From: Paludisphaera rhizosphaerae
GTDB taxonomy: Bacteria > Planctomycetota > Planctomycetia > Isosphaerales > Isosphaeraceae
Reading direction: 5' to 3'
Length of the DNA: 64,000 nt
NCBI RefSeq assembly: GCF_011065895.1
Contig: NZ_JAALCR010000029.1
Location: 1-64,000, forward strand
The notes beneath the pieces are model-generated. The model searched no databases, was not told the origin of the DNA, and worked only from the letters and a program-made list of their open reading frames with translations. A program made the position numbers and the translations under genes. Positions 7,851-55,459 of the stretch are shown one piece after another; position 1 is the stretch's first letter; each line of letters starts with the position of its first letter.

Positions 7851-8005
7851 TCTCGGCGTACTTCATTATTTCGGTGGGGCAGTCCTGGATCAAGCGCGCG
7901 AGCGCCTGGAAATGCAGACGCCTCCCGCGCCGGGCTGGACTTGAGCAGCCAATCCAGCTGACGACTCGGGGGCGTCTCAGGTCGTCCAACGTCTATCGGC
8001 TGGAA

Positions 8006-9760: not shown

Positions 9761-10207
9761 GACGTCGTAACTCCCAAGAGAGATGCCAGGGGGGGCCGGT
9801 CCGCAGCCAGCGGCCGGCGCGGAAGGCGCGAGTCGCGACGGCGACCGGTGAGCGATCACCGCGGGCCTGGCGTCGTCGCCGCAGTAATATGGCGTTGAAC
9901 GAGGTGCGAATACAATGACTGTGAGGCGACGGCCGCGAACCGTTCTGGTCGCCCCGTCCTGCGAAGATGCGAAGGGAATGAGGCCGAGGCGTTTCCCTGC
10001 CTTCGAAGCTAACAGACCGAATTCCCTCCATCAAGCGATTCCGATGGAATTCAAAGGACTTAGGTAACGGTCCCCCGGTTGATTCCGATCGGTCCTGCGG
10101 CTTGACTTCGGGGTGCTGGACTACGACTCTAGTTCTCGAAGACGTCGACTCGGTGGAATTCGCCAACACGCCGCGTCGAGGAACGACTCCCTACCGGAGA
10201 CCCACCC
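9761..10207. promoter_or_regulatory. Divergent intergenic region
   Basis: 447 bases separate the pilus cluster (minus strand) from the sugar dehydrogenase gene (plus strand), so promoters for both must lie here. No convincing -35/-10 pair was found: a TTGACT at 10102 lacks a good partner. I see no gene in it. Confidence 0.4.
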
Positions 10208-11534: not shown

Positions 11535-13094
11535 ATGGCGACCGCAACGACCATGCCCCGGGCCGTCCTCCTCCGACGGGACGACGACGTGGCGGTCGCC
11601 TCCGCCCCGATCCCAGCAGGGGCGGAGATCAAGGTGGAGGGCGTGGCCCTGACGGCCCTCGATCCGATCGGACTGGGTCATAAGATCGCAGTTCACGACC
11701 TGCAGAAGGGCTCGCCAGTCCGCAAGTATGGCCAGGTGATCGGTTTCGCCTCGGAACGGATCGCGGCGGGGTCGTGCGTCCACGTCCACAACCTCCGAGC
11801 CGAGTTGTTTGAACGTGATTACGCCTTCGCTCAGGAGAGGAGCACGGAGCACCCTCTCGATCCGGCTCGCACGTTTCGAGGCTACCTCAGGCCCGACGGT
11901 CGCGTTGGAACTCGAAACTATATCGCGGTCGTCAGCACGGTGAATTGCTCGGCCAGCACCTCGCGTTACATCTCGAACCGATTTCAGGACAGGGATTTCC
12001 GTCGATCGCACCCAAACGTCGACGGCGTCTTCGCGATCACTCACAAGGGAGGCTGCGGACTTCCTTTCGAGGGGAAGGACCACCAGATCCTGGAGCGTGT
12101 GCTGGCCGGTTTCGTCCACCACCCCAACGTCGCGGCCTACGTCCTGGTTGGGCTGGGATGCGAAGGCGCTTACGCGGAACACCTCATCGAGAGCCATCAT
12201 CTCCGGCTGGCCGCCGGCTCGGATCGCACCGTCTCCCAAAAGCCACGCGTATTCACGATCCAGGACGAGGGAGGAGTGTCGCGGACCGTCGAGGCTGCGG
12301 TCAGGGCCGTCGAGGGGCTTCTGCCCACGGCCGACGCTTGCCGACGCACCGAGCAACCGGCGTCGAAGCTCTGCGTCGCGCTGGAATGCGGCGGCTCCGA
12401 CGGCAATTCGGGGGTGACGGCCAATCCGGCCCTCGGCGTCGCAGCCGACCTCGTGGTCGCTCAGGGGGGCTCGGCCGTTCTTGGCGAGACGACCGAGATC
12501 TACGGTGCCGAACACCTTCTAACCCGCCGCGCCGTCTCCGAAGAGGTCGGCCGAAAGCTCCTGGATCGGATCAAATGGTGGGAGTGGTACACGAAGGTCT
12601 TTGGCGCTGCGATCAACAACAATCCGTCACCGGGGAACAAAGCCGGCGGGCTGTCGACGATCTACGAGAAGTCGCTCGGCGCCCTGGCGAAGGCTGGCTC
12701 GACGCCGCTGGTCGCCGTGGTCGATTACGCTGAGCAGGTCCGAACGCCGGGACTGGTCTTCATGGATACGCCGGGTTACGATCCGGTCTGCACGACGGGT
12801 CTCGTCGCCGGCGGCGCGAACATCCTCGTCTTCACGACGGGCCGCGGGAGCGTCCTGGGACTTCGACCAACCCCTTGCATCAAGGTGGCGACCAACACCC
12901 CGATGTTCGAGAAGCTTCGCGACGATATGGACCTGGACGCCGGTACGATTCTGGACGGCGAGTCCGTCGAGGCCGTGGGCCGCCGGGTCTTCGACAGCAT
13001 CCTCGCCGTCGCCAGCGGCGAACCGACCCGTAGCGAGCGCGCGGGGATCGGCGAGGAAGAGTTCGCCCCCTGGACCATTGGGCCGACCCTCTAA
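11535..13094 (+). CDS. Altronate/galactarate dehydratase family protein (UxaA family)
   Basis: 519 residues with the full-length UxaA layout. An N-terminal SAF domain occupies about 1-90. The catalytic part contains GYLRPDGRVGTRNYI, THKGGCGLPFEG, LGCEGAY, CGGSDGNSGVTANPALG, and FMDTPGYDPVC. The Cys residues in these motifs probably serve metal or cluster binding. UxaA eliminates water from D-altronate to 2-keto-3-deoxygluconate in uronate degradation, and relatives act on galactarate. The exact sugar acid cannot be told from sequence. It follows the PQQ sugar dehydrogenase gene, and pectin esterases occur elsewhere in the window, so a role in uronate use is reasonable but inferred. Confidence 0.85.
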   Translation: MATATTMPRAVLLRRDDDVAVASAPIPAGAEIKVEGVALTALDPIGLGHKIAVHDLQKGSPVRKYGQVIGFASERIAAGSCVHVHNLRAELFERDYAFAQERSTEHPLDPARTFRGYLRPDGRVGTRNYIAVVSTVNCSASTSRYISNRFQDRDFRRSHPNVDGVFAITHKGGCGLPFEGKDHQILERVLAGFVHHPNVAAYVLVGLGCEGAYAEHLIESHHLRLAAGSDRTVSQKPRVFTIQDEGGVSRTVEAAVRAVEGLLPTADACRRTEQPASKLCVALECGGSDGNSGVTANPALGVAADLVVAQGGSAVLGETTEIYGAEHLLTRRAVSEEVGRKLLDRIKWWEWYTKVFGAAINNNPSPGNKAGGLSTIYEKSLGALAKAGSTPLVAVVDYAEQVRTPGLVFMDTPGYDPVCTTGLVAGGANILVFTTGRGSVLGLRPTPCIKVATNTPMFEKLRDDMDLDAGTILDGESVEAVGRRVFDSILAVASGEPTRSERAGIGEEEFAPWTIGPTL

Positions 13095-13114
13095 TTCGCA
13101 GCCGGGTTCGTGCC

Positions 13115-13888
13115 TCAGGCCCCAACCGCCGACGAAGCCCCCTTGGCCCGAAGGTACTCCACGATCACGACGTTGTTGCGCGCGATGGCCAAATCCAAAG
13201 CAGAGAAGGGCCGTGATGAGTCGCCGGCGTGAACCACGTCCACGCTCGCCCCCGATTCGACGAGGGCCTTCACCGCGTTCTCCTGCCCCTGGAAAGCGGC
13301 CGCCATCAAGGGAGTCAGCCCATCCGCCTTGGGCAGGTTGAGGTCGGCTCCATGTCGGGTGAGCATCCGGATCAGCGCAACGTCTCCGGTCGACGCTGCA
13401 TAGATGAGCAAGGTGAGCTGCTGTTGATCTGGTGGATCGGACGGCAGAGCGATAGGCGAATTCGGATCGGCTCCAGCCTCGAGCAAGAGCCTGCCGAGCG
13501 CGACGTGGCTGTGACGGAACGCAAAAGCCATGGCGGTGAGAGGAGGTTGGCCACACCTCGCGTCGACCGTTGCGCCATGTTCGATCAGAAGCCGCACCAG
13601 GGCTTCATTTCCATGGAGCGCCGCGGCATGGAGCGGCCTCATGCCACCCCGAGGATCCGGACGATCAACGTCCGCACCATTCTTGATCAGGAATTCGGCG
13701 ACATCGTCTCGACCTTTGACGAGTGCGAGCACAAGCGGCGGCGGCCCGTCACTCTGCGACCCATTGATATCGGCCCCATTCTCCAAGGCGGCCTTGGCGA
13801 GTGCGACGTCCCCATGCAACGCAGCGGCTAGAAGATCGTTGCCCTTTGAAGCCGGCTTCCGGCCGAACAACCAAGCCAATAGACCCAT
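13115..13888 (-). CDS. Ankyrin-repeat protein
   Basis: 257 residues from the ATG at 13888 (MGLLAWLFG); an in-frame start 31 codons upstream is less likely because the added sequence has no domain character. Six to seven ankyrin repeats are visible from about residue 20 to the end, with recurring units such as LLAAALHGD, LLIEHGATVDA, LLLEAGADPN and LTRHGADLNLP. Such repeats mediate protein-protein contacts and give no enzymatic hint. The short hydrophobic start may be a membrane anchor or simply a cap. It is convergent with the UxaA-family gene, 20 bases apart. Confidence 0.85.
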   Translation of the reverse strand: MGLLAWLFGRKPASKGNDLLAAALHGDVALAKAALENGADINGSQSDGPPPLVLALVKGRDDVAEFLIKNGADVDRPDPRGGMRPLHAAALHGNEALVRLLIEHGATVDARCGQPPLTAMAFAFRHSHVALGRLLLEAGADPNSPIALPSDPPDQQQLTLLIYAASTGDVALIRMLTRHGADLNLPKADGLTPLMAAAFQGQENAVKALVESGASVDVVHAGDSSRPFSALDLAIARNNVVIVEYLRAKGASSAVGA

Positions 13889-33457: not shown

Positions 33458-34930
33458 TCAACGGATCATCCCCAGCCAGTGGGCAGCCCCAGCAACTCCG
33501 ATGACGGCCAGCAGGCCGGCGGCGAGGCCGTAGCGGACGCGGCGGACGTGGCGCTGGAAGGCGGCCTCGCGTTCGGGGGCGGCGGCGAGCTTCTGGAGGA
33601 AGGCGATGCGGCTCGCGATGCTGCCGTGACGCCAGGATTTGGTCTCGGGATCGATGCCGTTCTGGCGGGCCACGGTCGCCAGGGCGTCGGCGAAGATCCG
33701 GACGCCGGTCGGACAGACGCGGTCGATGGGACGGCCGTCGTCGACGAGGGCTTCCAGGTCGACGTGGGGCGGGCAGTCCTCCGAATCGCAGGAGACCGCC
33801 TTGCAGCCGTAGACGTCGGCCTGACGCTCGAATCGGCGTGACAGCTGGCCGAAAAGGAGCCAGAAGACTCCGCCGATCCCCACGGCGACCGTCAGGCCCT
33901 CGACGACGTCGCGAACCGTCGACGGGCCCGAGGGATCGACGGTGGTCAGGTGCGAGATCCAGGCCTCGAGGCCGGTGAAGACGTCGGAGGCCATCGTCAG
34001 GACCGTCAGACAGCCGACGAAGAAGAACAGAAAGAACGGCAGGTGTCGGTGCGCGACGTGGCCGATCTCATGGCCGAAAACGGCGGCGATCTCCGTCGGC
34101 GTCAGTGAGTCGATGAGGGCGTCGGAAAGCAAGACGTAGCGGAACCTCGGCAGGACGCCCGTCACGCAGGCGTTGACCATCGCGTGGTCGGTGTCCCAGA
34201 CCAGCACGTCGCTGCAACGGAAGCCCGACCGCCGCGAGATCGCCTCCAGCCGGTTCCGGAGCGGCCCGTCGGGGAGCGGACGGGTCGGCCAGGCCATCCG
34301 AATGAACAGAGGCGAGAGGACCAGGATCAGAAACCCGAGCAGGGCCAGCTCGGCCGTCTCGGCCGCCGGATCGTCCCGCGTTTCCGGCCAGAACCGTCCG
34401 AAGACGTCGTTGCGAAGCACGAAGATCAGGATGATCGGCATCGCCAAAGCCAGCGCCTGACGCGTCTTGAGGTAGAGATGCCTTGCGACCCGCGCGGAGG
34501 CGTGCGAGACCGGCAGCCCGTGGATGGCCCGTTCGCCGTAAAAGAGGCCCCACCACGTCAGGATCTGCATGAACAGAAACGGCGCGATCGTCAGCACGTC
34601 GTCGACGAGGACCGAGCCCCGCCATCCCCAGGAATCGTTCACGACCCCGGCCCACCCCCAGCCGTGGATCATCCAGCCGAAGGCCGCCAGGGTGAGAACG
34701 GCGACCAATCGCGAGCCATAGAAGAAGACTCGCCGCACGCGGGAGGTCGCGTACCCCTTGCCTCGGACGCGCCAGGCCGTCCAGAGTCCCAGGGTGAAGG
34801 CGGCCGAGGCCACGGCCAGGCTTGCGGCGACCGTTCGAATCGTCGTGGCGATGACGTCGTCCGGCGGCGACCCCGGCGCATCGAGGCCGAAAGCGAGAAA
34901 AAGGGCGATCAGAAACGGGATGGGGATCAT
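33458..34930 (-). CDS. Membrane M48-family metallopeptidase
   Basis: 490 residues. The zinc motif HEIGH lies in VFGHEIGHVAHRH at about residues 283-296, with the third ligand expected in the region after the following membrane helices. Several hydrophobic segments occur in the N-terminal half (first at 1-18, then about 35-55, 70-90, 105-130, 170-190) and two more around 300-370, giving a polytopic protease unlike the soluble M48B type. HtpX/Ste24-like relatives degrade misfolded membrane proteins or cleave specific substrates. It is convergent with the 167-residue unknown, 20 bases apart. Confidence 0.88.
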   Translation of the reverse strand: MIPIPFLIALFLAFGLDAPGSPPDDVIATTIRTVAASLAVASAAFTLGLWTAWRVRGKGYATSRVRRVFFYGSRLVAVLTLAAFGWMIHGWGWAGVVNDSWGWRGSVLVDDVLTIAPFLFMQILTWWGLFYGERAIHGLPVSHASARVARHLYLKTRQALALAMPIILIFVLRNDVFGRFWPETRDDPAAETAELALLGFLILVLSPLFIRMAWPTRPLPDGPLRNRLEAISRRSGFRCSDVLVWDTDHAMVNACVTGVLPRFRYVLLSDALIDSLTPTEIAAVFGHEIGHVAHRHLPFFLFFFVGCLTVLTMASDVFTGLEAWISHLTTVDPSGPSTVRDVVEGLTVAVGIGGVFWLLFGQLSRRFERQADVYGCKAVSCDSEDCPPHVDLEALVDDGRPIDRVCPTGVRIFADALATVARQNGIDPETKSWRHGSIASRIAFLQKLAAAPEREAAFQRHVRRVRYGLAAGLLAVIGVAGAAHWLGMIR

Positions 34931-35029
34931 GGAATCCTGGTGCGGGCGTCACGGCTTGAGAGGGGCGGACGGCGACCGTCCGGACGAAGATCTCGCCGGC
35001 CGAATTATCCGAACGATTTCCGCCCGCCG

Positions 35030-35590
35030 TCAAGGGGAGGGGTCGAGACCCGGCTCGTCGGAGAGTCGTTTGCTCGAGGCTGGCGCCCAGCCGTCGGTAC
35101 GTCGGCGAGTGGCTTCCATCTCGGTCGGCAGCGGCTTGCGACGCTCGGTGCGCGTGGGGGGCTCGGCCGGAGGCGGGGTTTCCTCGTCGATCGGATCCCG
35201 ATCAGCATCGAGGGCGACTCGGGAGCCCTTTTCGGCCAGGACGGAACGGACGGCGGTGGGGAGGCTGTCGCGAAGCTCGCGGAAGGCGGTTTTCAGCTCG
35301 TCTTGCTGCGTCTGATAGGCGTGGACGCTCCGGCGCAGGCCCTCGATCGTCTCGACCTGAGCGACGGCTCGGCGGTTGTCGTCGACCGACCGTTCGGAGA
35401 GGTCGTCGTACTGGTTGCGGTAGGTGAGAAGCTGATCCTTGAGCTGATCGTTCTCAGAACGGAGAGCCTGAATGTAGCGATGGCTCTCTTCCAGCCGCTG
35501 GCGAGAGCCGAACTGGTTGCATCCAGGCGCGGTCAGGGCGCAGGCCAGCGCGAGGATCGACCAGGCTCGTCGTCTCGGCGCGGGGGTCAT
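35030..35590 (-). CDS. Coiled-coil lipoprotein
   Basis: 186 residues. The N-terminal signal ends in the lipobox-like LTAPGC, giving a lipidated Cys24. A coiled coil follows at about 33-100, with heptad-like Leu/Gln/Glu spacing (QRLEESHRYIQALRSENDQL, then VETIEGLRRSVHAYQ). The C-terminal third is Pro/Arg/Glu-rich and probably disordered. No enzymatic domain is present. It could be a periplasmic spacer or envelope-stabilising protein. It lies between the M48 peptidase and the SDSDV-repeat gene, all on the same strand. Confidence 0.75.
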   Translation of the reverse strand: MTPAPRRRAWSILALACALTAPGCNQFGSRQRLEESHRYIQALRSENDQLKDQLLTYRNQYDDLSERSVDDNRRAVAQVETIEGLRRSVHAYQTQQDELKTAFRELRDSLPTAVRSVLAEKGSRVALDADRDPIDEETPPPAEPPTRTERRKPLPTEMEATRRRTDGWAPASSKRLSDEPGLDPSP

Positions 35591-35764
35591 GCGTCCCGAT
35601 TCCCTCCGGGGCCGTCCGCGATCGTCGCGCGGATGCGCAACGCGACCCGTCTGCGTCCGAATGGAGGTGACGGGTCAAGGCGTCTCGCGGGGCTCAGCGG
35701 GGTCGTCTTAGCGGATTCCGGCCGATCGGGCAAGGCCGATGCGGCCGGAATCCACCGGAGACGA

Positions 35765-37255
35765 TCATTGGAAGACGAGGCCGGAGATCGACTTGACGAG
35801 TCCGGAGGCGACGCCTCCCTCGTGGAAGTCGTAGAGGTTCCGGACCAGGTCGTAGGCCAGGAACGAGGAGAGCAGGACGAAGAAGCTGGCGGCGGCCAGC
35901 AGACCCACGGAGAGGCCGTCCCAATCGGCGGCCGGCTCACGCGAGATGACCATGCCCGGCGAGGCCGAGGAGGTCGAGGGGGTGTCGTCCGACGCCCAGG
36001 CGGTCGCCATTTCGCTGGAGACGGCGTCGTCGAAGCCGTCGTCTTCCTCGTCGTCGTCCTCGGTGATGCCCGAGGGGGCCATCGCCGTGGCGGCGTTGAT
36101 GTCGACGTCTTCCTCGTCGATCGCGAAGACTTCCGAGGCGCTGTCGCTGTCTTCCAGGTCGAAGTCGCTGCCGGCGTTGAGCTGGACGGTCTTGTCGTCC
36201 GACTCGTCGTCGAGGGCGGCGTCGACCTCGAAGTCGGTGTCGTCGAAGATATCCTTCTCGGCCTTGGCGACGGCCGGCGGGGGCGTGGCGGACAGGCCGG
36301 GCTTGGGCTTGGACGGGGCGGCCGGCCTGGCCTTGCTGGTGGGGAGTTCCTCGTCGCTGAGCGGGGCCAGCTCGATCGACTCGCCGCCGCTGAAAGCGCC
36401 CAGCAGGTTGATGCCGGAGTCGCTGGGCCGGGACAGGTTGATGCCGGAGAGGTTCGGGTCGGCCGCGGTGACGTCCGAATCGCTCGGCTTCAGCGGGGTC
36501 GCCTCGAATTCGTCGCTGGCGTCCAGAGCGCTCAGCTCGAAGTCGCTGCCCGATTCGGGCTGGAGAGCGTCGACGAGTTGCTCGCTGGAGGGCTTCAGCT
36601 CGAAGTCGCTGTCGGCCGAGGCGGCCGACATCTCGGACGACGAGCCGACGCGGCCGGGACTGATGCCGCTGTCGGACGCGCCGGAGGCCGGGATCAGCAT
36701 GTGCTCCGAGGTGTCGTCCTTGATGAGGGTGACGTCGGAGTCGCTCGGGACGCGGCCGGGAGAGGCGAGCCGGACGTCAGAGTCGCTGGCGCCCTTGTAT
36801 TCGGGGACCAGGCGGACGTCGGAGTCGCTGGGACGCTTGCCGCTCGTGGACATGCCGATGATGACCGAGCTGGAGCCGGTCACCGGGTTGGGCGGGACCG
36901 ACAGGTCGTCGATCATCAGGTCGTGCTCGCCGGATCCGCTGTCGCCGGTCACGCCGAAGTGCATCGTCTCGGCGCCGAGGTCCGGCTTGGCCGCGCCGAG
37001 CTGGAACTCGGAGAGATCCAGCTCGTCGAGGTCGGCGGCGCTGGCGGCCGGGGCTTCCAGGTCGGAGAGCCGCAGCTCGGCGTCGCTTCCCAGGCCGTGG
37101 CGGCGGGCGAGCTCATCCACGTCGGCGACGCGGAACCGCCAGGTGCCGCCGTCCAGAAACGCGCGGACTTCTCGGGACTGAGCCTTCGCCTTCAGTTCCT
37201 CAGGACTCATCCCCAGGACGCGGGCGGCTTCTTCAAGCGTGTAGAACTGAGCCAT
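35765..37255 (-). CDS. Membrane-anchored helix-turn-helix protein with acidic SDSDV repeats
   Basis: 496 residues from the ATG at 37255, which begins MAQFYTLEEAARVLGMS. Residues about 2-55 are an excisionase/MerR-type helix-turn-helix (EEAARVLGMSPEELKAKA, then FRVADVDELARR). The centre (about 60-420) is low-complexity and highly acidic, with repeated short units SDSDVRL, SDSDVTL, SDSGI and SDFEL. One membrane helix lies near 450-472 (LLAAASFFVLLSSFLAYDLV), followed by a short tail. The layout suggests a DNA- or protein-binding head held at the membrane by a long acidic spacer. The repeated SDSDV units could be phosphorylation sites. Family function is not known to me. Confidence 0.75.
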   Translation of the reverse strand: MAQFYTLEEAARVLGMSPEELKAKAQSREVRAFLDGGTWRFRVADVDELARRHGLGSDAELRLSDLEAPAASAADLDELDLSEFQLGAAKPDLGAETMHFGVTGDSGSGEHDLMIDDLSVPPNPVTGSSSVIIGMSTSGKRPSDSDVRLVPEYKGASDSDVRLASPGRVPSDSDVTLIKDDTSEHMLIPASGASDSGISPGRVGSSSEMSAASADSDFELKPSSEQLVDALQPESGSDFELSALDASDEFEATPLKPSDSDVTAADPNLSGINLSRPSDSGINLLGAFSGGESIELAPLSDEELPTSKARPAAPSKPKPGLSATPPPAVAKAEKDIFDDTDFEVDAALDDESDDKTVQLNAGSDFDLEDSDSASEVFAIDEEDVDINAATAMAPSGITEDDDEEDDGFDDAVSSEMATAWASDDTPSTSSASPGMVISREPAADWDGLSVGLLAAASFFVLLSSFLAYDLVRNLYDFHEGGVASGLVKSISGLVFQ

Positions 37256-44891: not shown

Positions 44892-45236
44892 TCAGGCCGG
44901 GAGAGCGGCGACGTCCTGGGACTTACCCATCGAGCCGACGGCCTCCTCGGCGGCGGTCCGTGCGTCGTTCGCTCCGTCGATCAGGCCGCGGACGGCGGCG
45001 TTTTCGCGCGGGACGGCGCCTGCGGCGAGCATCACCGGGAAGACCACGCCGTACGAGATCGTGTAGCACGTGGTATAGACGAACCGACTGGCGAACCGGC
45101 CGGCCGATTCCCAGGCCTTCGACGCCGCTTCAACGGCGTCGGCCGAGCCGCGGCGGATGCCGTCGGAGGCCACGGCCAGGACGGTCGGCCCTTCTTCGTG
45201 AGACTCGGCTTGCTCGGTTTCGTGGTGCTCGGACAT
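44892..45236 (-). CDS. Small hydrophobic protein, paralogue of the 54803-55159 protein
   Basis: 114 residues from the ATG at 45236, preceded by GGAGG. An acidic N-terminus (SEHHETEQAESHEEGP) leads to a hydrophobic core with YTISYGVVFPVMLAAGAVPRENAAVRGLIDGA and a short charged tail. The block YGVVFP-x-ML followed by VP-x-ENAAV-x-GLIDGA is shared with the 118-residue protein about 9.9 kb away, at the other end of the P-type ATPase cluster, so the two are paralogues. I do not recognise the family. The segment may be a re-entrant or single membrane element. Confidence 0.7.
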   Translation of the reverse strand: MSEHHETEQAESHEEGPTVLAVASDGIRRGSADAVEAASKAWESAGRFASRFVYTTCYTISYGVVFPVMLAAGAVPRENAAVRGLIDGANDARTAAEEAVGSMGKSQDVAALPA

Positions 45237-45379
45237 GGGTGCCTCCAGGAACCGCTCTCGCGAAACGGAACGCTCGAACTGGTCGCCAACTTCGATTCTA
45301 CGCATTTTACCCAGCCAACGGGGACGATGTTAGGAAATCTCGCCTCCGGAATGCTGAAACGACGTCGACGCGCACCGAA

Positions 45380-46719: not shown

Positions 46720-47802
46720 TCAGAAGCCCGGCGACGGGGTCTCCGTCAGGTAGAAGAAGCCGATGCCGAGCATGGCATAGACGCCGATCAGCATGAGCCC
46801 GTCGAGCCAACTGGACTCGCCGTCGTCGATCAAGGGCCGGGTGACGAGAACGGCGAGGAAGACGGCGACGACCTCGAACCGCCCGAAGACGAGATCCATC
46901 GGCTTGCCGAGGAAGGCCCCGTAGAACACCAGCACCGGCGCGACCAGCAGGGCCACCTGGATGCTCGACCCGACCGTCACCCCCAGGGAAAGATCCATCT
47001 TCCCCATCCGGGCGAACCCCACGGCGCAGGAGGTTTCCGAAACGTTGCCCGCCAACGCGAGAAGGAAGACTCCGGAGAAAACGGGCGTCAGTCCCAGTGC
47101 CGCCGAAGCGGGCTCGATCGCGTCCGTGAGGATCTCGCTGACGACGGCGAGAACGATCGTCGACCCAGCGAGAATCGCCAGCGCCTTGCCGCGGCTCCAG
47201 CGGCTCTCCTGCTTGGGTTGGTCGGTCAGCTCGACGACCTGGGCTTCGACCGCCTGCTTACCGGCGGCGGGACGGCTGGAGACGACCGTGAAGACCAGGC
47301 TCGCCAGGTAGATCAAGAACAGGACGCCCGCGACCTCGACGCTGATCGCCCGGCTGAAGGAGGTCGAAGTATGGTTGAACACGGCCGGGATGATGAGGCC
47401 GGCCGCCGTCAGCGTCAGGAGCGCCGAGCCAGTCCCCGCCACACGGCGGTTGAACCGCTGCGTCCCGTTCCGGAGCCCGCCGAGGAACATCGAGAGCCCC
47501 AGGGCCAGCAGCAGGTTGCCCAGGATCGACCCCACCAACGATGATTTCACCACGTCGACGAGCCCGCGCCGCAGGGCCGAGGCGCCGATGATGATCTCCG
47601 GGGCGTTGCCGAGCGAGGCGCTCAGCAGGCCGCCCCAGGTTGAACCCAGGTCGGAGGCGAGGGAGTCGGTCGAATCCTGGCTCAATCGAGAGAGCGGGAT
47701 GAGCGCCAGGGCCGAGCAGCCGAAGACCAGGATGGGATGAGCCCCGACCGCATACAGCGCCAGGGCCGCCGGGACGAACGCCAGGAGAAAGTCGAGCCGC
47801 AT
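46720..47802 (-). CDS. Ca2+/H+ exchanger-like (Cax-type) membrane protein
   Basis: 360 residues with about 11 hydrophobic segments and two alpha repeats. The first repeat is canonical (GNAPEIIIGASALR...VKSSLVGSILGNLLLALG). In the second, the usual GNAAEH-type site reads GNVSETSCAVGF, followed by KMDLSLGVTVGSSIQVAL: the Glu is kept, the His is missing. Cax proteins export Ca2+ or other divalent cations in exchange for protons. The altered second site may change ion preference. The gene closes the operon-like series that starts with the P-type ATPases. Confidence 0.85.
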   Translation of the reverse strand: MRLDFLLAFVPAALALYAVGAHPILVFGCSALALIPLSRLSQDSTDSLASDLGSTWGGLLSASLGNAPEIIIGASALRRGLVDVVKSSLVGSILGNLLLALGLSMFLGGLRNGTQRFNRRVAGTGSALLTLTAAGLIIPAVFNHTSTSFSRAISVEVAGVLFLIYLASLVFTVVSSRPAAGKQAVEAQVVELTDQPKQESRWSRGKALAILAGSTIVLAVVSEILTDAIEPASAALGLTPVFSGVFLLALAGNVSETSCAVGFARMGKMDLSLGVTVGSSIQVALLVAPVLVFYGAFLGKPMDLVFGRFEVVAVFLAVLVTRPLIDDGESSWLDGLMLIGVYAMLGIGFFYLTETPSPGF

Positions 47803-48096: not shown

Positions 48097-48429
48097 TCAC
48101 TTCTCAAGGGGATAACGGCGGTCGAGGTCGTCCAGGAATCGGGCGACTTGCCGCACGCTCTGACGATGCAACCGGGGAAAGCGCTTCACGAAGCCGTCCT
48201 CGACGCGGCGAAAGGCCGAGGGCCAGAGGACCAGACCGCCAAGGATCAGGAAAGGCGAGCCGACCGGGCCGGGGAGCAGGATCCCGCCGATCCCAGCCAC
48301 GATCAGGAGAACGCCGACCTCCTTCGGAAGCCCCTCGATCCTTTGCAACTGCTGGGCCTCGAATGCCTGGTTTTCGGCGGAATCCTCGTCACCAGAACTC
48401 ACGCCGGTCGCGGGCGGGGCCGTGCTCAT
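48097..48429 (-). CDS. Small PGPGW-like membrane protein (copy 1)
   Basis: 110 residues. Two hydrophobic stretches surround the motif ILLPGPVGSPFLILGGLVLWP at about residues 47-70, which resembles the 'putative transmembrane PGPGW' family. A C-terminal amphipathic part holds RQVARFLDDLDRRYP. It is clearly paralogous to the upstream 105-residue protein (shared LPKE-x-GV, LP...G-x-P, GG-x-VLWP, RFP, LDDL-x-RR-x-P). The gene begins 24 bases after the copy-2 stop, so the pair is probably co-translated. Confidence 0.75.
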   Translation of the reverse strand: MSTAPPATGVSSGDEDSAENQAFEAQQLQRIEGLPKEVGVLLIVAGIGGILLPGPVGSPFLILGGLVLWPSAFRRVEDGFVKRFPRLHRQSVRQVARFLDDLDRRYPLEK

Positions 48430-48453: not shown

Positions 48454-48771
48454 TCAGGCGCGGGTCGAGTCGGGGAATCGCCGCTCCAGGTCGTCGAGGT
48501 AACGGCCGATCTGGCGCATCCCCTCGCGGTACGCGGTAGGGAAACGGCGGGCCGCCCAGGTTTCGACCCTGCCGAACGTCCTGGGCCAGAGGACCATCCC
48601 ACCCGCGACGAGCGCGGGGAGCCCCGCCATCGCCGGCAGGATGAAACCGATCGCCCCGACCGAGACGAGCATGACGCCCGCCTCCTTCGGCAGTTCGGCG
48701 ATCCGCGAGGGCGTCGTCCCCGTTGCGGGAGTTGGAGCGTTGGAAGCCTTCTCGGTCGGATTCGTCCTCAC
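48454..48771 (-). CDS. Small PGPGW-like membrane protein (copy 2)
   Basis: 105 residues from a GTG start that overlaps the stop of the upstream ATPase-like gene by four bases, a sign of translational coupling. A disordered Thr/Pro-rich start leads to a membrane segment LPKEAGVMLVSVGAIGFILP and AGLPALVAGGMVLWP, then a charged tail with RQIGRYLDDLERRFP. It is paralogous to the downstream 110-residue protein. Function is unknown. Confidence 0.75.
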   Translation of the reverse strand: MRTNPTEKASNAPTPATGTTPSRIAELPKEAGVMLVSVGAIGFILPAMAGLPALVAGGMVLWPRTFGRVETWAARRFPTAYREGMRQIGRYLDDLERRFPDSTRA

Positions 48772-51101
48772 GCGATCACCTCCCCGGTCGATCCCGCCGC
48801 GCGGCGGTACAGTTGCAGCGTCCCCAGGTTGTTCACCACGACCACGGCCAGCGAGGTCACCCCGAAGAACATCGCCCCGGCGACGCACATCACGCCGGGA
48901 ACCAGAACGAAACGCCGGGCCGATCGACCCGCTTCCTCCTGGGACCGAGCGGTCGAAAGCGCTTCGGCCAGGAGCCCGAGTTCGGGCCGCATCAGAACGG
49001 CCGACGCGGGGCTGTGGTCCGATGCGACCTCGCCGCTGATGCAAACGGCGGCGAAGGCGGATCGCGCGGCGGTTTCCTCGGCCGTGCAATCGCCGACGAA
49101 CATCGGTCGACCTCGCGTCCGGAGGTCCTGCATGAGCCTGGCCTTGTCGGCGGAAGTCAGCCCTCCCAGCGTCGCGTCGACGCCGAGCGCCCGGCCCATT
49201 CGCTCTGCCTCGGCGGTGGGTCGGGACGAAATGAAGGCGACGGGAATTCTCAATCGCCGACGCAGCCGGGCGACCGCACCGGCCGCCGCAGGCGCGTCCG
49301 ATCGCTCGAAGGCAATCGAGCCCGCGTCGCGACCGTCGATTTCGACGGTCAGGCGACCAACGCCGGGTTCGCCCTGGTCGCGGACGACGACCCGGTGCTT
49401 GCCATGCGCAACCGTCACGCCGTCGTCGAAGCCGAGCGGAGCCAGGTCGAGCAGGAAGCCCCCCCTGCTCCGACAGGCGTCCTCCAGGGCCGTCGAGCGG
49501 TCGTCGGCCATGTGCCGGAACGCGGCGGCGGCATATCGAAGGACGAGTTCCTGGGGAAGCTCCGACTGGACCGAGGCCACGCGGACGCCTGGACGGTGCA
49601 GTTCCGGGAAGTCGTCGAGAACCAGGCGGTCGATTCCAGCCAGCCGGCCGAAAGCATCGGGCGACCGGACGACCACGCCGATCCTCGCGCAGGCCGCCGC
49701 GTTGCGCAACGACTCCAGCGGGCCCACCATGCCCGGTCCGGTCGCGTAGTCGGGTCGGAGGACGGCCGTCGCGACGTCGAGTCCGCCCGACATCAGGCCC
49801 ACCCCGGCCGCCACGATGGTCGGCCCCACGGCGCGCTCTGCGAACGCCTCGGCGTCGCGCGGGGTGGCCCTGTCCGGCGCGAAGTTCGTCGCCCCGACCA
49901 GCGCTCGGCCCACGGCCGCCGCCCGAGCATCGGCCGACGGCCGGGAGACCTCCAGGGCCAGCGTCCCATGCAAGACGCGTCCCCCCGCCAGCAGTTCGTC
50001 GCCGGCGTCGACCCGCGAGGCTCCTCGCAGGCCTCGGACGGCGCACTGATCGACGAGCCCGCGACCGCTCGCCACTCGACCGTCGGCGGGCACTGCGTCG
50101 CCGGGGCCGAGTCGGACAAGGTCTCCTGGGAGGAGGCGGTCCGGAGACTCGAACGCCGTTCCCGACCCGCGGTCCACCTGGACGACGGAAGGCATCGGCA
50201 GACATTCCGCCAGCAGCCGCCGACGCCCAGCCGAGAGATCGACCCGCAGCCGATCCTGCCAGTATTTGAACGACCAGGCCATGAGCGCCGAGGCCAGGAA
50301 ATTACCGGTCGCGAGCGTCCCCCCGACGATGACCGTGTAGAGCACGGGGAGGCCGGCCCTGCGTTCCTGGACCTGCACGACCGCCTGGCGGAACGTCTTC
50401 AGGTTCCCCCCGACCAGGATCGTCGCGCAGACGACGCCAAGTCCGGGCGCGGCGAGGTCCGCCGCAGCGCCGACGGCCAGATTCGCATTCGACAGCGCGA
50501 ACGAAGCGCGAGGCGGCGGCGGCGATTCGCGGTCCCACCAGCCGGCGGCGTCCAGCGACTCCTCGACGACCTCGATCATTCGCTCCACCTTCGCGCCGCC
50601 TCGGACGTTGAGCGTCCCCGTCCTTCCCTCGACGCAAACGTGCTTCACGCCCGGCTCGGCGGCGACCCGGCGCTGGCATTCGCGCGCCGCCAGTCGGTCC
50701 TCCTTGAGCCTCGGGTGCCTCAGGCGGAGCAACCCCGGCTGGTCGATCAGTACCTCGCAAGTGGATGCCCGGCCGTCGTTGCGATGGATCGTACACGAGG
50801 ACGCCCAGGCCCTCGGCAGCCTCGGACGGTTCGAGGGCTCGGAGCGCAACGCCCCGGAGAGTCTGGTCAGCACGTCTCGACGATCCGCCGAGCGTTGAGG
50901 TCGAACGTATGCGACCCCCGCAGCGCGGTCGATGCGGATCGAGGCGACTTCCGCGAGGGTGAGGACTCGCTCCAGGAGCCGTCGAACCGAGGCGTCGGCC
51001 CTCGGTCCCAGGGTCCTCGGCGCGCGAATCTCCACCTCGTCCCCCGCCAGGAGGATCTGGGGGGCGTCGCCGGCTCGGCTCGCCTGATGTGCGTGGGGCA
51101 T
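48768..51101 (-). CDS. Catalytically degenerate P-type ATPase-like protein with HMA-like N-terminal domains
   Basis: 777 residues with the full outline of a heavy-metal P-type ATPase: two HMA-like N-terminal regions (about 15-85 and 110-185), membrane helices, actuator region, P/N domains and final helices. Every catalytic signature is altered: the actuator TGE is RGL (356-358), the phosphorylation DKTGT is DDFPE (496 onward), and the hinge GDGxND is GDCTAE (670 onward). The CPx membrane motif is replaced by YATGPGMVGP. The hydrolytic cycle cannot run in this form, so a structural, scaffolding or regulatory role is likely. An R-x8-S-V segment begins at Arg29, paralleling the R-x8-S-L of the intact ATPase downstream in sequence coordinates. 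Confidence 0.85.
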   Translation of the reverse strand: MPHAHQASRAGDAPQILLAGDEVEIRAPRTLGPRADASVRRLLERVLTLAEVASIRIDRAAGVAYVRPQRSADRRDVLTRLSGALRSEPSNRPRLPRAWASSCTIHRNDGRASTCEVLIDQPGLLRLRHPRLKEDRLAARECQRRVAAEPGVKHVCVEGRTGTLNVRGGAKVERMIEVVEESLDAAGWWDRESPPPPRASFALSNANLAVGAAADLAAPGLGVVCATILVGGNLKTFRQAVVQVQERRAGLPVLYTVIVGGTLATGNFLASALMAWSFKYWQDRLRVDLSAGRRRLLAECLPMPSVVQVDRGSGTAFESPDRLLPGDLVRLGPGDAVPADGRVASGRGLVDQCAVRGLRGASRVDAGDELLAGGRVLHGTLALEVSRPSADARAAAVGRALVGATNFAPDRATPRDAEAFAERAVGPTIVAAGVGLMSGGLDVATAVLRPDYATGPGMVGPLESLRNAAACARIGVVVRSPDAFGRLAGIDRLVLDDFPELHRPGVRVASVQSELPQELVLRYAAAAFRHMADDRSTALEDACRSRGGFLLDLAPLGFDDGVTVAHGKHRVVVRDQGEPGVGRLTVEIDGRDAGSIAFERSDAPAAAGAVARLRRRLRIPVAFISSRPTAEAERMGRALGVDATLGGLTSADKARLMQDLRTRGRPMFVGDCTAEETAARSAFAAVCISGEVASDHSPASAVLMRPELGLLAEALSTARSQEEAGRSARRFVLVPGVMCVAGAMFFGVTSLAVVVVNNLGTLQLYRRAAGSTGEVIA

Positions 51102-51111
51102 CGGGCCTCGC

Positions 51112-51309
51112 TCAGGAAGGGGGCGAGTAAGGCTTGAGCTCGCCGCTGGCGACCATTCCTTCCAGGACCTGCGCGATCTTGCTCTCTTCCTTGTCGAACA
51201 CGTTGAAAACCTCGCGCAGGCGGCTGCGTTCGCGAGACAGCTCGAAGCCGAGCCACCCCGCGATCAGGAGGCCGACGACGGCGGGAAGCAGTGGGATCTC
51301 TTCGTCCAC
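51112..51309 (-). CDS. Small single-helix membrane protein
   Basis: 65 residues from a GTG at 51309, supported by an AGGGAG eight bases upstream; a GTG six codons earlier lacks such a site. An N-terminal membrane helix (LLPAVVGLLIAGWLGFEL) is followed by a charged helix (SRERSRLREVFNVFDKEESK) and a short tail. It ends 10 bases before the start of the degenerate ATPase-like gene. Small accessory proteins often accompany P-type ATPases, which makes a subunit role conceivable. No family recognised. Confidence 0.65.
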   Translation of the reverse strand: MDEEIPLLPAVVGLLIAGWLGFELSRERSRLREVFNVFDKEESKIAQVLEGMVASGELKPYSPPS

Positions 51310-51338: not shown

Positions 51339-51872
51339 TCAGACGAGCTCGATCGAGGCGGCCGACGCCTCGCGCAGGATCTTCACGGCGCCGGAGAAGC
51401 CCTCGCGGTGCAGCTCTCCGCGAACAGCCTTGTCGAGCCGTTCGGCCGTTCGATTCATGTTCACGAACCGGAGGAACTCCTGCAGACGCGCCATCGCGTG
51501 CTCGCCGCTGCGGAACTTGCCCAGGTGGATCCGGAAGCCTCGGAAACGTCCGGCCCCCCCCTGCCCGCCGGCCAGAAGGTCGTAAACCAGCAGCGTCGGG
51601 TCGTGACCGATCAGGGTCGGCTCGCGCCGGAGCACCTCCACCGACTGGTCGGGGGTCAGGATGTAGAGGGAGTCCTGGCGCTGGAATTCGTAGAGGACCG
51701 GCAGATGCTTGCGCACGATCTCCGACACCGGCCGATTCCAGCCGGTGTCGATGAGGAACATATCGAACCTCTTGATCGTCGGGTCGATCGCCGCGGCGGG
51801 CGTCGCGGTCCGGAGGTTGAGCGAAGACGCCGGGGCCTCATGCGTCTTGGAATGGGCAGCTTTTCGAGGCAT
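51339..51872 (-). CDS. Unknown soluble protein in the P-type ATPase cluster
   Basis: 177 residues. A Lys/Ala-rich start leads to a compact core with KRFDMFLIDTGWNRPVSE, VLYEFQRQDSLYIL and TLLVYDLLAGGQGGAG, mixed alpha/beta in pattern. There is no signal peptide or membrane segment. I do not recognise the family. It is preceded by the 103-residue gene (25 bases) and followed by the 65-residue membrane protein (29 bases), clearly within the same transcript as the two ATPases. Confidence 0.7.
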   Translation of the reverse strand: MPRKAAHSKTHEAPASSLNLRTATPAAAIDPTIKRFDMFLIDTGWNRPVSEIVRKHLPVLYEFQRQDSLYILTPDQSVEVLRREPTLIGHDPTLLVYDLLAGGQGGAGRFRGFRIHLGKFRSGEHAMARLQEFLRFVNMNRTAERLDKAVRGELHREGFSGAVKILREASAASIELV

Positions 51873-51897: not shown

Positions 51898-52209
51898 TCA
51901 GAGCCCGAGGTCCGTCACGATCGAGTCGATGAAGCCTACGGCTTTGGCCCGATGCCGCTGGGTCGCCATGGCCTTGGCGGCCAGCGACAACTCGGCCACG
52001 ACCTGCATCTCCTCACGGCCGAAGTTCACGACGAAGGCCAGGAGAGGGGCCTTGATCGTGAACTGAGGCAGGTGGGGATGCCACTGGAACTCGGTCGGCA
52101 TCGGGATCTCGCCGCGACGACGCTCGTACTCCCCGCTGATCGCGGAGCGAGCCGCCTCGTCAAGCGGCCGCTGAAGACGCCTTGTGTACAGCGTTTCTTT
52201 CCATCGCAT
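51898..52209 (-). CDS. Unknown small protein overlapping the intact ATPase gene
   Basis: 103 residues; its ATG at 52209 lies 50 bases inside the 3' end of the intact P-type ATPase gene, in another frame. A start at Met37 would remove the overlap but shorten the protein to 67 residues. Visible core: PTEFQWHPHLPQFTIKAPLLAF, VVNFGREEMQVVAELSL and KAVGFIDSIV, a small alpha/beta unit. Partial resemblance to the PHA-granule-region family was considered but is weak. Function unknown. Confidence 0.6.
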   Translation of the reverse strand: MRWKETLYTRRLQRPLDEAARSAISGEYERRRGEIPMPTEFQWHPHLPQFTIKAPLLAFVVNFGREEMQVVAELSLAAKAMATQRHRAKAVGFIDSIVTDLGL

Positions 52210-54691
52210 GGCTGTGGGTCAACTCCAGCCGATACCGGCGCTCGGCCTCGATCTTGGCCGCTTTCCGCAGGGGCATCACGCCGTTGGCCAGCGCGGCCAG
52301 GGCGGCGACGTTGTTGGTGACGACGGAGGCCATGATCCCGAAGCCCATCGTGAACACGCCCGCGATGCAGGCTATGTTCGGCGCCAGGATCATCGACCAG
52401 CTCCGCTTGACGTTCCGGTCCAGGTCGCGGGCCACGTCGCGGAGGTCGCAGAGTTTCGCGAGGCCCTCCTCCAGGAAGACGATGTGGGCCGTGTCGGTGG
52501 CGATCGACGAAGCCCCCCGCAGCGAGATCGACACGTTGGCCTTCTTCAGGGCGATCGAATCGTTGATGCCGTCGCCCACGAAGCAGACCTTCTTCCCTTC
52601 CTTCTGCAGCCTCTCGACGTAGTCGGCCTTGTCGGCGGGGAGCACCTGAGCGAAGTAGCGGTCCATCCCCAGCGACTCGGCCAGTTTTTTCGTCGGAGCC
52701 TCGTGGTCGCCGGAGATGATCGCGATGTGCTTGATCCCGCGCTCTCGCAGACCGGCGATGATCGACTTGACCTCGGGCCGGACGGAAGCCTGCAACTCGA
52801 TCGCCCCGCCGAGATGGTCGTCGACGCCGACCATGACCATGGTATAACCCTCGCGATGGGCCTCGTCGAGGGCCTGCTTGACTTCGGGGGTCAGCTCGAT
52901 CCCCTCGGTCTCCAGGAACCGTTTCGAGCCCACGCGGACCGTCCGACCGTCGATGTGGACCGTGATCCCGTAGCCCACCTTGTACTGGGTCTCGTCCGTC
53001 TCCGGCAGGGAGAGGCCGACCTCCTTGGCCTTGTGCAGGATGGCCAGGGCGATCGGATGGTGGAACTTCTTCTCAGCCGCGGCCGCGTATCCCAGGATCT
53101 GATCGGCGTCGAAGCCCTTCGAGGCAATGACTCGGCCGACCTCCGGGCGTTCGCGGGTCAGCGTGCCGGTCTTGTCGAAGAGGACCGTGTCGACCTCGTT
53201 CATCAACTCGAGGGCCCGGCCGTCCTTGACGAGGATCCCCTTGTTGGCGCACAAGGTCAGCGAGCTGAGCATCGCCAGCGGGGCCGCCATCCGGATGCCC
53301 GTGCCGAAGTCGCTGTTGAGGACGGCCACCGCGCCGGCGGGGCCCATCGCGGCCATCCCCACCGACCCGATGGCGAGCGTTGGGATCACCGCCTTGTCGG
53401 CCAGCCGTTCGCCCTTGTGCTGGGAGGAGAGCTTGTAGCCGGCCGTGTCGTTGAGGATCTGCGAGATCTTCGCCGAGGCCGTCTCGCTCCCCGAGGTCTC
53501 GACCGACACGAAGACCTTGCCCGCGACCATGATCGTCGAGGCGAAGACCCGGTCGCCGACCCCTTTCTCGGCGGGCGTCGACTCGCCCGTCAGCGCGTGC
53601 TGGTCGATCATCGCCATCCCCTCGACGACGTGGCCGTCGACGGGGACCACCTCGCCGGTGTTGACGACGATCGTATCGCCCTGCTGGAGCTTGTCGACCG
53701 AGACCTGGACCTCGACGCCGTCGCGGATCATCCAGGCGTATCTCGGCTGCTTGCCGAAGGCGTTGAGCAGCATCTTCTTCGAGTCGTCCTGCGTCCGTTT
53801 GACCAGCACCCTGCCGAAGCTGAGGCACCAGCAGAGGACCGCCCCGGGGAAGATCGACATCGTTCCCAAACAGCCGACCACGACGATCGCGTCCAGGACG
53901 TCCACCCCTAGCCGCTTCTCCTCGAAGAGGACGCTCTTCGCCTCCTTGAACGTCGGGATCGAGGTGTAAGCGAACAACCCGGCCGCCACCGGGAGGAGCG
54001 GCGGGAAGGCGAACTGGGCCACGGCCGCGAAGGGGACCGAGGCCGTGCAGAGCGGCAGGTGGAGGTCCAGCTTGTCCAGCTTCTCGGGATGCTCGGCGTT
54101 GTCGAGCGCGGTCGAGACGATCTCGATCACCTGATCGCGGGTGAGCTGGGCCGGGTCGTAGTCGACCTGGACGAAGCACCGGATCGAGCCCGTGGAGTAC
54201 TTCTCGATCCCCAGGATGCTCATCAGCTCGCGCTCGATCGCCTGGCAGAGGTCGTTCTTGCGATAGAGCACTCGGTTGCGGAGGCGGATTCGACCCGGAC
54301 GATCAACCTGGATCTCCCAGGAGCCGCTCGCCGGAGCAGCCGTCGTCGCCGGAGCATCGACCCGGACGTGGCGAATCGAGCCGTCCCGCGCGTGGGAAAC
54401 CAGGCGCTGAGGCGGGGCTGACTGCGCAGGAGCCTCGGGATCAGCCCGCCGAAGGGCGGCCGAGATCCGGGCGACGACCGCCTGAACGGTCCAGGACTTC
54501 GGGCAGAAGCGAACCTCGGCGGCGGGGGAGTCGCCGGGAATGAAGGCGACCTCGGTGACTTCCGGAGCTTGCATCACCCGATCGAGAAACCGCCGGCAAA
54601 GAGAGCCGTCGGGATCGCCGAAAAGGGTCCGACTCGAGAGCCGTACCACGCCCCCGGTTGGGAACGTGACGGCCAGATCCAGGCTGCTCAT
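52160..54691 (-). CDS. HMA-type P-type ATPase, intact; P1B-6-like
   Basis: 843 residues. Two HMA-like domains lead (about 5-82 and 125-200), each opening with a G-x-x-(V/I)RL element. Catalytic motifs are complete: TGES (368-371), DKTGT with Asp506, and GDGIND around 706. The ion-pathway motif is not CPx: the segment reads FGTGIRMAAPLA, so copper or zinc transport of the usual P1B type is unlikely. An R-x8-S-L motif spans Arg21 to Leu31; from memory, this type of motif marks FezB/FezC of ferrosome clusters, whose P1B-6 ATPases load iron. Metal specificity is not proven here. The gene starts 111 bases after the 118-residue small-protein gene. Confidence 0.85.
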   Translation of the reverse strand: MSSLDLAVTFPTGGVVRLSSRTLFGDPDGSLCRRFLDRVMQAPEVTEVAFIPGDSPAAEVRFCPKSWTVQAVVARISAALRRADPEAPAQSAPPQRLVSHARDGSIRHVRVDAPATTAAPASGSWEIQVDRPGRIRLRNRVLYRKNDLCQAIERELMSILGIEKYSTGSIRCFVQVDYDPAQLTRDQVIEIVSTALDNAEHPEKLDKLDLHLPLCTASVPFAAVAQFAFPPLLPVAAGLFAYTSIPTFKEAKSVLFEEKRLGVDVLDAIVVVGCLGTMSIFPGAVLCWCLSFGRVLVKRTQDDSKKMLLNAFGKQPRYAWMIRDGVEVQVSVDKLQQGDTIVVNTGEVVPVDGHVVEGMAMIDQHALTGESTPAEKGVGDRVFASTIMVAGKVFVSVETSGSETASAKISQILNDTAGYKLSSQHKGERLADKAVIPTLAIGSVGMAAMGPAGAVAVLNSDFGTGIRMAAPLAMLSSLTLCANKGILVKDGRALELMNEVDTVLFDKTGTLTRERPEVGRVIASKGFDADQILGYAAAAEKKFHHPIALAILHKAKEVGLSLPETDETQYKVGYGITVHIDGRTVRVGSKRFLETEGIELTPEVKQALDEAHREGYTMVMVGVDDHLGGAIELQASVRPEVKSIIAGLRERGIKHIAIISGDHEAPTKKLAESLGMDRYFAQVLPADKADYVERLQKEGKKVCFVGDGINDSIALKKANVSISLRGASSIATDTAHIVFLEEGLAKLCDLRDVARDLDRNVKRSWSMILAPNIACIAGVFTMGFGIMASVVTNNVAALAALANGVMPLRKAAKIEAERRYRLELTHSHAMERNAVHKASSAAA

Positions 54692-54802: not shown

Positions 54803-55159
54803 TCAGGACGACGGTGATTCCGACGCGCCGCTTTCGGGCGCCGCCGCGTTCTTGGCCTTCATCTCCTCAATGAGATCCATCGCCGCCCGGGCCCCGTCGA
54901 TCAGCCCATGAACGGCGGCGTTCTCCTTGGGAACGAGATTGACGACCAGCATCGTGGGGAAGACGACGCCGTAGGAAACGCCGTAACACGCCTTGTAGGT
55001 CAACCCGGAGAGCATCCCGCCGATCGCAGGGACCGCCCTCGACGCGGCCTCCGCTGCATCGCCAACGCCATCTTTAGCAGCCTGAACCGCGGCATCAAGG
55101 GCATCAGCAACCGAGTGCAACGGATCGCCGCCGGTTGAATTCACAGCCTCCTCGGACAT
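54803..55159 (-). CDS. Small hydrophobic protein, first gene of the P-type ATPase cluster
   Basis: 118 residues from the ATG at 55159 (GGAG 9 bases upstream); a GTG four codons earlier is possible. After a charged helical start (about 1-40) comes a hydrophobic stretch (SGLTYKACYGVSYGVVFPTM), then VPKENAAVHGLIDGA and an Ala/Lys/Glu tail. It is paralogous to the 114-residue protein at 44892-45236. As the first gene of the cluster it may be a membrane-associated structural component. The family is not recognised. Confidence 0.7.
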   Translation of the reverse strand: MSEEAVNSTGGDPLHSVADALDAAVQAAKDGVGDAAEAASRAVPAIGGMLSGLTYKACYGVSYGVVFPTMLVVNLVPKENAAVHGLIDGARAAMDLIEEMKAKNAAAPESGASESPSS

Positions 55160-55459
55160 GACACGCTCCACGGAGGGTTTTTAGTCTGGCCAAAGAACGC
55201 AGAGATATAAAGATATCGAAAAATCGGCAGGGATAACCTTAGACAATCGTAATCTTAGCCTATCCTCCCCCGATTATCTGTCAAAGTTCTTGTTGATCAC
55301 ATTTTTCGTTTTCGCCGACCCAATCGGCATTCTTCCGCCGACCGTCAAAATCGGAAAACCTGAGAACCGGGAGTTCGCGGCGTGGATCGTCCGACCTCGA
55401 CCTTCCAGTCTCGTATAAGATCGAACATCGACATCCGATTCGCCAACAGGAGTCCACGC
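55160..55459. promoter_or_regulatory. Divergent promoter region of the metal-cluster operon and the molybdopterin oxidoreductase
   Basis: 300 bases between divergent genes with an AT-rich core (55195-55330). No clear metal-regulator operator was found: an isolated GATTATC at 55272 is palindromic around its centre but not a Fur box. This is the most likely position for regulation of both transcripts. Confidence 0.45.

Follow-up and report, generated by a model that had tools for sequence, protein, structure and literature searches.

A catalytically dead P1B-like ATPase paralogue maintained under selection beside an intact pump: a candidate non-catalytic pump subunit

Gene cluster around the pump pair

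The 64,000-nt stretch of the Paludisphaera rhizosphaerae genome analyzed here (the window) contains a cluster of genes in the order up122-ActPump-sm103-c177-sm65-PseuPump-pg93-pg110 (Table 1). ActPump is an intact P1B-like ATPase with an M4 segment (NSDFGTGIR) that lacks CPx and with a match to the NCBIfam family TIGR01525 (416.7 bits) over the cut-off. PseuPump is a paralogue without the catalytic motifs. Its 777-residue frame, reported as open in an earlier note on this DNA, indeed has an ATG start and no internal stops, and the intact ATPase that the note placed 1 kb upstream ends 1,059 nt before it. The start/stop coupling described in the note is also present: the PseuPump stop and the GTG start of pg93 share 4 nt (GTGA), and 10 nt separate the end of sm65 from the PseuPump ATG. 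Because its GTG overlaps the PseuPump stop, pg93 is 105 aa long.

The two pump genes are linked in an operon, and the order ActPump-sm103-c177-sm65-PseuPump-pg93-pg110 is conserved across relatives. A calcium/proton exchanger gene often lies near the cluster or ends it. The sm65 gene was absent from the list of open reading frames and was found in the gap before PseuPump; its product is up to 69% identical to those of relatives and accompanies c177. A Pfam search of the small cluster proteins gave no match, and sm65 also lacks a match to DUF1490. Gene fusions join some of the products. The ActPump C-terminus and sm103 form one fused protein in 7 genomes, and in a planctomycete locus (L035) the C-terminus of PseuPump is fused in frame to a pg93/pg110-like membrane domain. 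No fusion of ActPump with PseuPump was found; all genomes examined encode them separately.

Similar small proteins, d137 and up122, are encoded one on each side of the cluster and have the motif SYGVVFP...ENAAV.GLIDGA in common. In addition, an extra HMA-like segment resembling the PseuPump N-terminus lies upstream of the pump pair in a SYHD metagenome-assembled genome (MAG; L034), where it is preceded by a pg93-like gene.

Table 1. Features of the window and of the related loci discussed in the text.
Feature	Record	Positions	Strand	Description
up122	window	54803..55171	-	conserved small protein, first in cluster
ActPump	window	52160..54691	-	intact P1B-like ATPase, 843 aa; DKTGT, TGES, GDGIND
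sm103	window	51898..52209	-	103 aa; 50 nt overlap with ActPump 3' end
c177	window	51339..51872	-	conserved; no membrane helix predicted; no Pfam or NCBIfam match
sm65	window	51112..51309	-	65 aa; one hydrophobic segment; GTG start
PseuPump	window	48768..51101	-	catalytically dead P1B-like P-type ATPase paralogue, 777 aa
PseuPump HMA-like N-terminus	window	residues about 20-200
PseuPump TM	window	residues about 205-285
PseuPump degenerate A domain	window	residues 290-405
PseuPump M3-M4	window	residues 415-480
PseuPump degenerate P/N domain	window	residues 481-728
PseuPump M5-M6	window	residues 729-765
PseuPump M4 region	window	49712..49784	-	residues about 440-463; family signature RPDYATGPG (449-457)
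PseuPump M4 signature	window	49732-49757		exact DNA pattern
pg93	window	48454..48771	-	small membrane protein
pg110	window	48097..48429	-	small membrane protein; sub-threshold likeness to Pfam PGPGW
Calcium/proton exchanger	window	46720..47802	-	CaCA; TIGR00378
d137	window	44892-45305	-	small protein similar to up122
Extra HMA-like segment	L034	6425-6943	+	SYHD MAG
PseuPump fusion	L035	23-2557	+	C-terminal pg93/pg110-like domain
Second dead lineage	L057	1861-4389	+
Second dead lineage	L068	709-3057	-
Second dead lineage	L069	4449-6803	+
Second dead lineage	L071	3499-5559	-
pMRAD05 live pump	L137 (NC_010518.1)	26-2479	-
pMRAD05 CorA	L137 (NC_010518.1)	35509-36405	-
pMRAD05 dead pump P0003	L137 (NC_010518.1)	33665-35509	-	'hypothetical protein', 614 aa
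Gloeothece intact ATPase	L138 (NC_014533.1)	7881-10097	+	Gloeothece verrucosa plasmid; DFGTGIR-type
Gloeothece degenerate P-type ATPase	L138 (NC_014533.1)	11795-13363	+	'HMA2 domain-containing protein'; without A and N domains

Catalytic loss and retention of the membrane core

PseuPump has the domain order of P1B ATPases (CopA, ZntA, HMA4; TIGR01525) as well as their A- and P-domain folds, and these enzymes are its best relatives of solved structure. Homology and modeling thus predict a P-type ATPase fold. In Pfam the protein matches E1-E2_ATPase (PF00122) at 1.5e-11 and a HAD domain below threshold, whereas its best NCBIfam matches, heavy-metal P-type ATPases, fall far under the cut-off. A PDB search with a profile of the dead family retrieved P1B ATPases (best E 1e-50, HMA4). 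The AlphaFold model, built from a five-row alignment and good in the P and N (cytosolic) domains but unreliable in the membrane part (mean pLDDT 62), resembles CopA, ZntA and HMA4; its P domain matches structure 2voy_I with a Z of 18.1 and an rmsd of 1.7 over 127 residues. Profile and structure comparison together recover the A- and P-domain folds of the architecture described in the earlier note. The HMA-like N-terminus gives a weak signal in the window protein, but HMA_2 reaches significance in the L035 orthologue (9e-9).

The replacement of the catalytic motifs was confirmed at each of the motifs named in the note. PseuPump has DDFPE (D496-E500) in place of DKTGT, RGL (356-358) in place of the TGE motif for dephosphorylation in the A domain, and GDCTAE (670-675) in place of the Mg-binding motif GDGxND, although the phosphorylatable aspartate itself (D496) is still present. 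P1B ATPases carry both the catalytic motifs and the CPx metal motif in M4; PseuPump lacks the former and has RPDYATGPG at the M4 position, where ActPump has SDFGTGIR.

Catalytic loss is family-wide. We aligned the dead copies against 27 live pumps and found no member with the TGE glutamate (0/28), the DKTGT lysine (0/31), the GDGxND asparagine (0/28) or the His-Pro pair that binds ATP in the N domain of P1B enzymes (0/23), and the aspartate of the second HAD motif survives in only 2 of 29. The phosphorylatable aspartate persists in 22/31 copies, being E, G, A or I in the other 9, and the aspartate of GD (D671) in 22/28. These two residues, together with the retained HAD-like fold of the P domain, could point to an enzyme with another chemistry, such as a divergent HAD phosphatase or an unconventional ATPase with relocated catalytic residues. 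We regard this as very improbable, however, given the substitutions at the aspartate, the complete loss of the motif lysine and of the GDGxND asparagine, and the near-complete loss of the second-motif aspartate. Furthermore, we found in the P domain of the dead family no similarly invariant polar signature that could take their place.

The membrane core has a different history. In M4, D451, Y452 and G455 are invariant (31/31 dead copies). P735 and N736 of M5 are kept in 28/28 and 26/28 copies, respectively, the window PseuPump having Gly at 736, and N758 of M6 in 28/28. Of the positions invariant among the ActPump proteins, the dead copies retain 25/101 in the TM segments, a higher share than the 15/154 retained in the P/N domain (Fisher p = 0.0024). 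Indeed, conservation of the dead family is highest in M3-M4 and M5-M6, while the P domain is among the best-conserved parts of the live family. An arginine next to the M4 aspartate (R449) is present in 29/31 dead copies, and R467 of ActPump is absent from the dead family. The M4 site could therefore be a salt-bridged plug rather than an ion site, with R449 as a built-in counter-ion that may occlude it.

Selection, descent and distribution of the dead pump

The dead copies are under purifying selection. Their dN/dS values (Nei-Gojobori, tested pairs) range from 0.07 to 0.44, well under 1, compared with 0.06-0.28 for the live pumps. In neutral simulations, which place the same nucleotide changes randomly and give a dN/dS of about 1, seven dead-copy pairs reached 0.83-1.12 against observed values of 0.165-0.436. 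About 1-14 stops were expected per pair and none was seen. As the earlier note had argued, random decay would have left stops: for the window PseuPump and a same-genus genome, the simulation predicted about 8 (minimum 2 in 100 runs) and none is present. The note's proposal of selection for a non-enzymatic role is strongly supported because no orthologue (0 of about 30) has intact motifs and dN/dS is well below 1.

These results also bear on the possibility that PseuPump is a decaying pseudogene that is open by chance in the window genome. Such decay would fit the lost motifs and the greater divergence of the dead copies, about 3.4 times that of the live ones. Yet the frame is open in essentially all relatives, and the motifs were already gone in the common ancestor. 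In a quick maximum-likelihood tree, whose long branches leave the finer order uncertain, the dead copies form one clade (SH-aLRT 100) apart from the live pumps; the motif loss is therefore older than the family. We give a pseudogene almost no credence, recent decay being ruled out by the motif states of the orthologues, the dN/dS values and the neutral simulation. A sequencing or frameshift artifact was likewise ruled out by the same state in about 30 genomes.

Constraint on the dead pump is biased toward the membrane. Regional dN/dS is lowest in M5-M6 (0.15) and M3-M4 (0.17) and indicates weaker constraint in the A domain (0.34), the P/N domain (0.36) and the N-terminus (0.37). That constraint is concentrated in the ion-path helices points to a function within or beside the ion path and, with the membrane core the most constrained part, a membrane or ion-path role is favored over that of a purely cytosolic scaffold. 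A scaffold could nonetheless act in the membrane, with PseuPump mainly gathering pg93, pg110, sm65, sm103 and c177 into a platform in a role like that of PacL1. The several conserved small proteins encoded in the operon, the L035 fusion and the 4 nt that PseuPump shares with pg93 in the window would agree with such a function. However, a mere scaffold would not need an M4 motif that is invariant across the family, nor would its constraint be expected to peak in the membrane core instead of the cytosolic domains. We judge this explanation rather unlikely.

ActPump and PseuPump co-occur strictly. Among 45 genomes of the taxonomic family, Isosphaeraceae (Planctomycetota), 30 have both (counting G016, in which only a fragment of PseuPump is present) and 15 have neither, with ActPump presence scored at E <= 1e-80. 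The pair appears and disappears jointly within genera: G000, G028 and G029 have both genes and G030-G032 neither, and similar switches separate G008 (present) from G007 (absent) and G042 (present) from G039-G041 (absent). Two further loci, both from planctomycete MAGs, came from GTDB genome contigs, one with the live/dead pair (L034) and one with a dead copy (L035). When 392 genomes of this phylum were searched with the A1 profile, two candidates being scored per genome, no dead copy was seen outside the family among the matches inspected; the best of these outside matches have intact motifs. The exact DNA pattern of the M4 signature matched the window genome only, but this pattern is over-strict and also missed a family member (G022). 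No dead copy was found in viral contigs.

The two pumps have also diversified together. Across 20 genomes, a mirror-tree comparison of raw distances correlates the live with the dead pumps at r = 0.78 (Mantel p about 1e-4), a correlation that is partly due to common descent. The identical presence and absence in 45 genomes, the fixed operon and this co-diversification lend indirect support to the suggestion of the earlier note that PseuPump is a partner of the intact ATPase.

A proposed subunit of a P-type ATPase system

P-type ATPases are usually viewed as self-contained motors and are recognized by DKTGT. The loss of the motor from a protein whose membrane core is under strong selection beside a live pump means that the shell is functional in its own right, and the dead family provides a natural case in which the ion path is separated from the motor. 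On balance, we favor the interpretation that PseuPump serves a P1B-like P-type ATPase system as a dedicated non-catalytic subunit. In this view, a 'DFGTGIR'-type pump was duplicated long ago, and one duplicate lost its capacity to autophosphorylate, bind ATP and dephosphorylate before diversification of the family; it would have been retained for a membrane core that works jointly with the intact ATPase of the same operon. This working core would comprise M1-M2, M3-M4 with the invariant D-Y-x-x-G site, and M5-M6 with the invariant Asn. PseuPump would probably sit beside ActPump in the membrane, in physical contact with it as a stable or regulatory partner, and shape, feed or gate the ion path, with ActPump as the source of ATP-driven motion. 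The complex would be completed by sm103 on the side of the live pump, by pg93 and pg110 on that of the dead pump, and by sm65 and c177. The substrate may be a divalent cation, the only hints of this being HMA_2, the Ca/H exchanger close to the cluster and a CorA gene in the Methylobacterium operon (see below). Arguing against the subunit model, operon linkage and common descent can produce co-occurrence and co-diversification even between proteins that do not touch, and the divergence of the dead copy is about 3.4 times that of the live pump.

PseuPump could instead handle ions autonomously and independently of ATP, as a passive pathway, a metal buffer or an ion sensor that has only its regulation in common with ActPump. 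The pattern of loss and retention is what such a protein might show: the motor is gone, the membrane core with the M4 Asp, M5 Pro/Asn and M6 Asn is best kept, and an HMA_2-like N-terminus is still present in the dead family. But PseuPump occurs without ActPump in 0/45 genomes, the conserved arginine beside the M4 Asp may fill the site, and the A and P domains keep their fold under moderate constraint (w 0.34-0.36), which is unexpected for a simple channel. An autonomous ion protein is thus unlikely in our assessment.

To our knowledge, no live/dead heteromer has been described among stand-alone P-type ATPases. A full-text literature search for pseudoenzyme partners of P-type ATPases in bacteria returned nothing relevant, which does not prove their absence. 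Chan et al. 2010 reportedly described the N-terminal half of FUPA family 24 as a non-functional type I ATPase. This family resembles the pump pair in maintaining an inactive P-type-like half alongside an active one; however, there the active half is of type II and belongs to the same polypeptide, whereas ActPump and PseuPump are separate genes, both P1B-like, with dedicated small proteins. No gene examined here joins a dead type I half to an active type II half, and the live partner is of the TIGR01525 type. Members of the FUPA family such as CtpH and CtpI of M. tuberculosis have a large N-terminal segment followed by a functional C-terminal ATPase half (PMC3573892) and are uncharacterised (PMC10654040).

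Other systems share single features with the proposed assembly. Apicomplexan guanylate cyclases bear an appended P4-ATPase-like domain (PMC6592433, PMC7858053), a P-type ATPase module inside a larger signaling assembly, but the domain is fused to the cyclase, unlike PseuPump. Furthermore, the ATPase Asp of the P. falciparum cyclase could not be replaced, suggesting that its domain is active (PMC7858053). In KdpFABC, too, one operon supplies a P-type ATPase subunit, a distinct membrane subunit and small peptides that work together, although KdpA is a channel-type protein and not a dead P-type ATPase. In mycobacteria, PacL1 assembles CtpC metal efflux platforms, in which a P1B ATPase is co-encoded with small single-TM proteins (PMC9374683); a dead pump is not described there and sm65 has no DUF1490 match.

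We also identified a second loss of catalysis within the family. Four genomes (G010, G016, G018 and G020) carry a further copy of the live pump that is open but lacks the catalytic motifs and is followed by c177 and sm65, the latter cut by the contig end in G016. All of them also contain the primary live/dead pair. The extra dead copies group in a clade of their own within the live pumps (SH-aLRT 98), and the position of this clade indicates that they lost the motifs independently. The dN/dS of the G016/G020 pair is 0.455, versus about 1.18 under neutrality.

Similar arrangements, one instance each, occur in Methylobacterium and Gloeothece. The closest live relative on plasmids (43% identity) is on pMRAD05 of Methylobacterium radiotolerans, where the live pump, CorA and the dead pump P0003 read, in this order, as one operon spanning the record start. 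A Pfam search of P0003 gave no match. Its hhalign score was 242.7 with the dead family but 61.8 with the live one, a comparison tilted toward the dead family by the lower diversity of the live profile. No similarity was found between sm103 and a small neighbor in Methylobacterium (P0007). The degenerate paralogue on the Gloeothece verrucosa plasmid is remoter than that of Methylobacterium and is separated from the intact pump by DUF1345 and DUF5132 genes. With these parallels in Alphaproteobacteria and Cyanobacteria and at least two losses of catalysis, we tentatively raise the possibility of a heteromeric live/dead P-type ATPase in which a motor-less, obligate second subunit contributes an ion-handling membrane core. 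Proteins annotated as 'hypothetical' or 'HMA2 domain' beside such pumps may be pump subunits that motif-based annotation misses.
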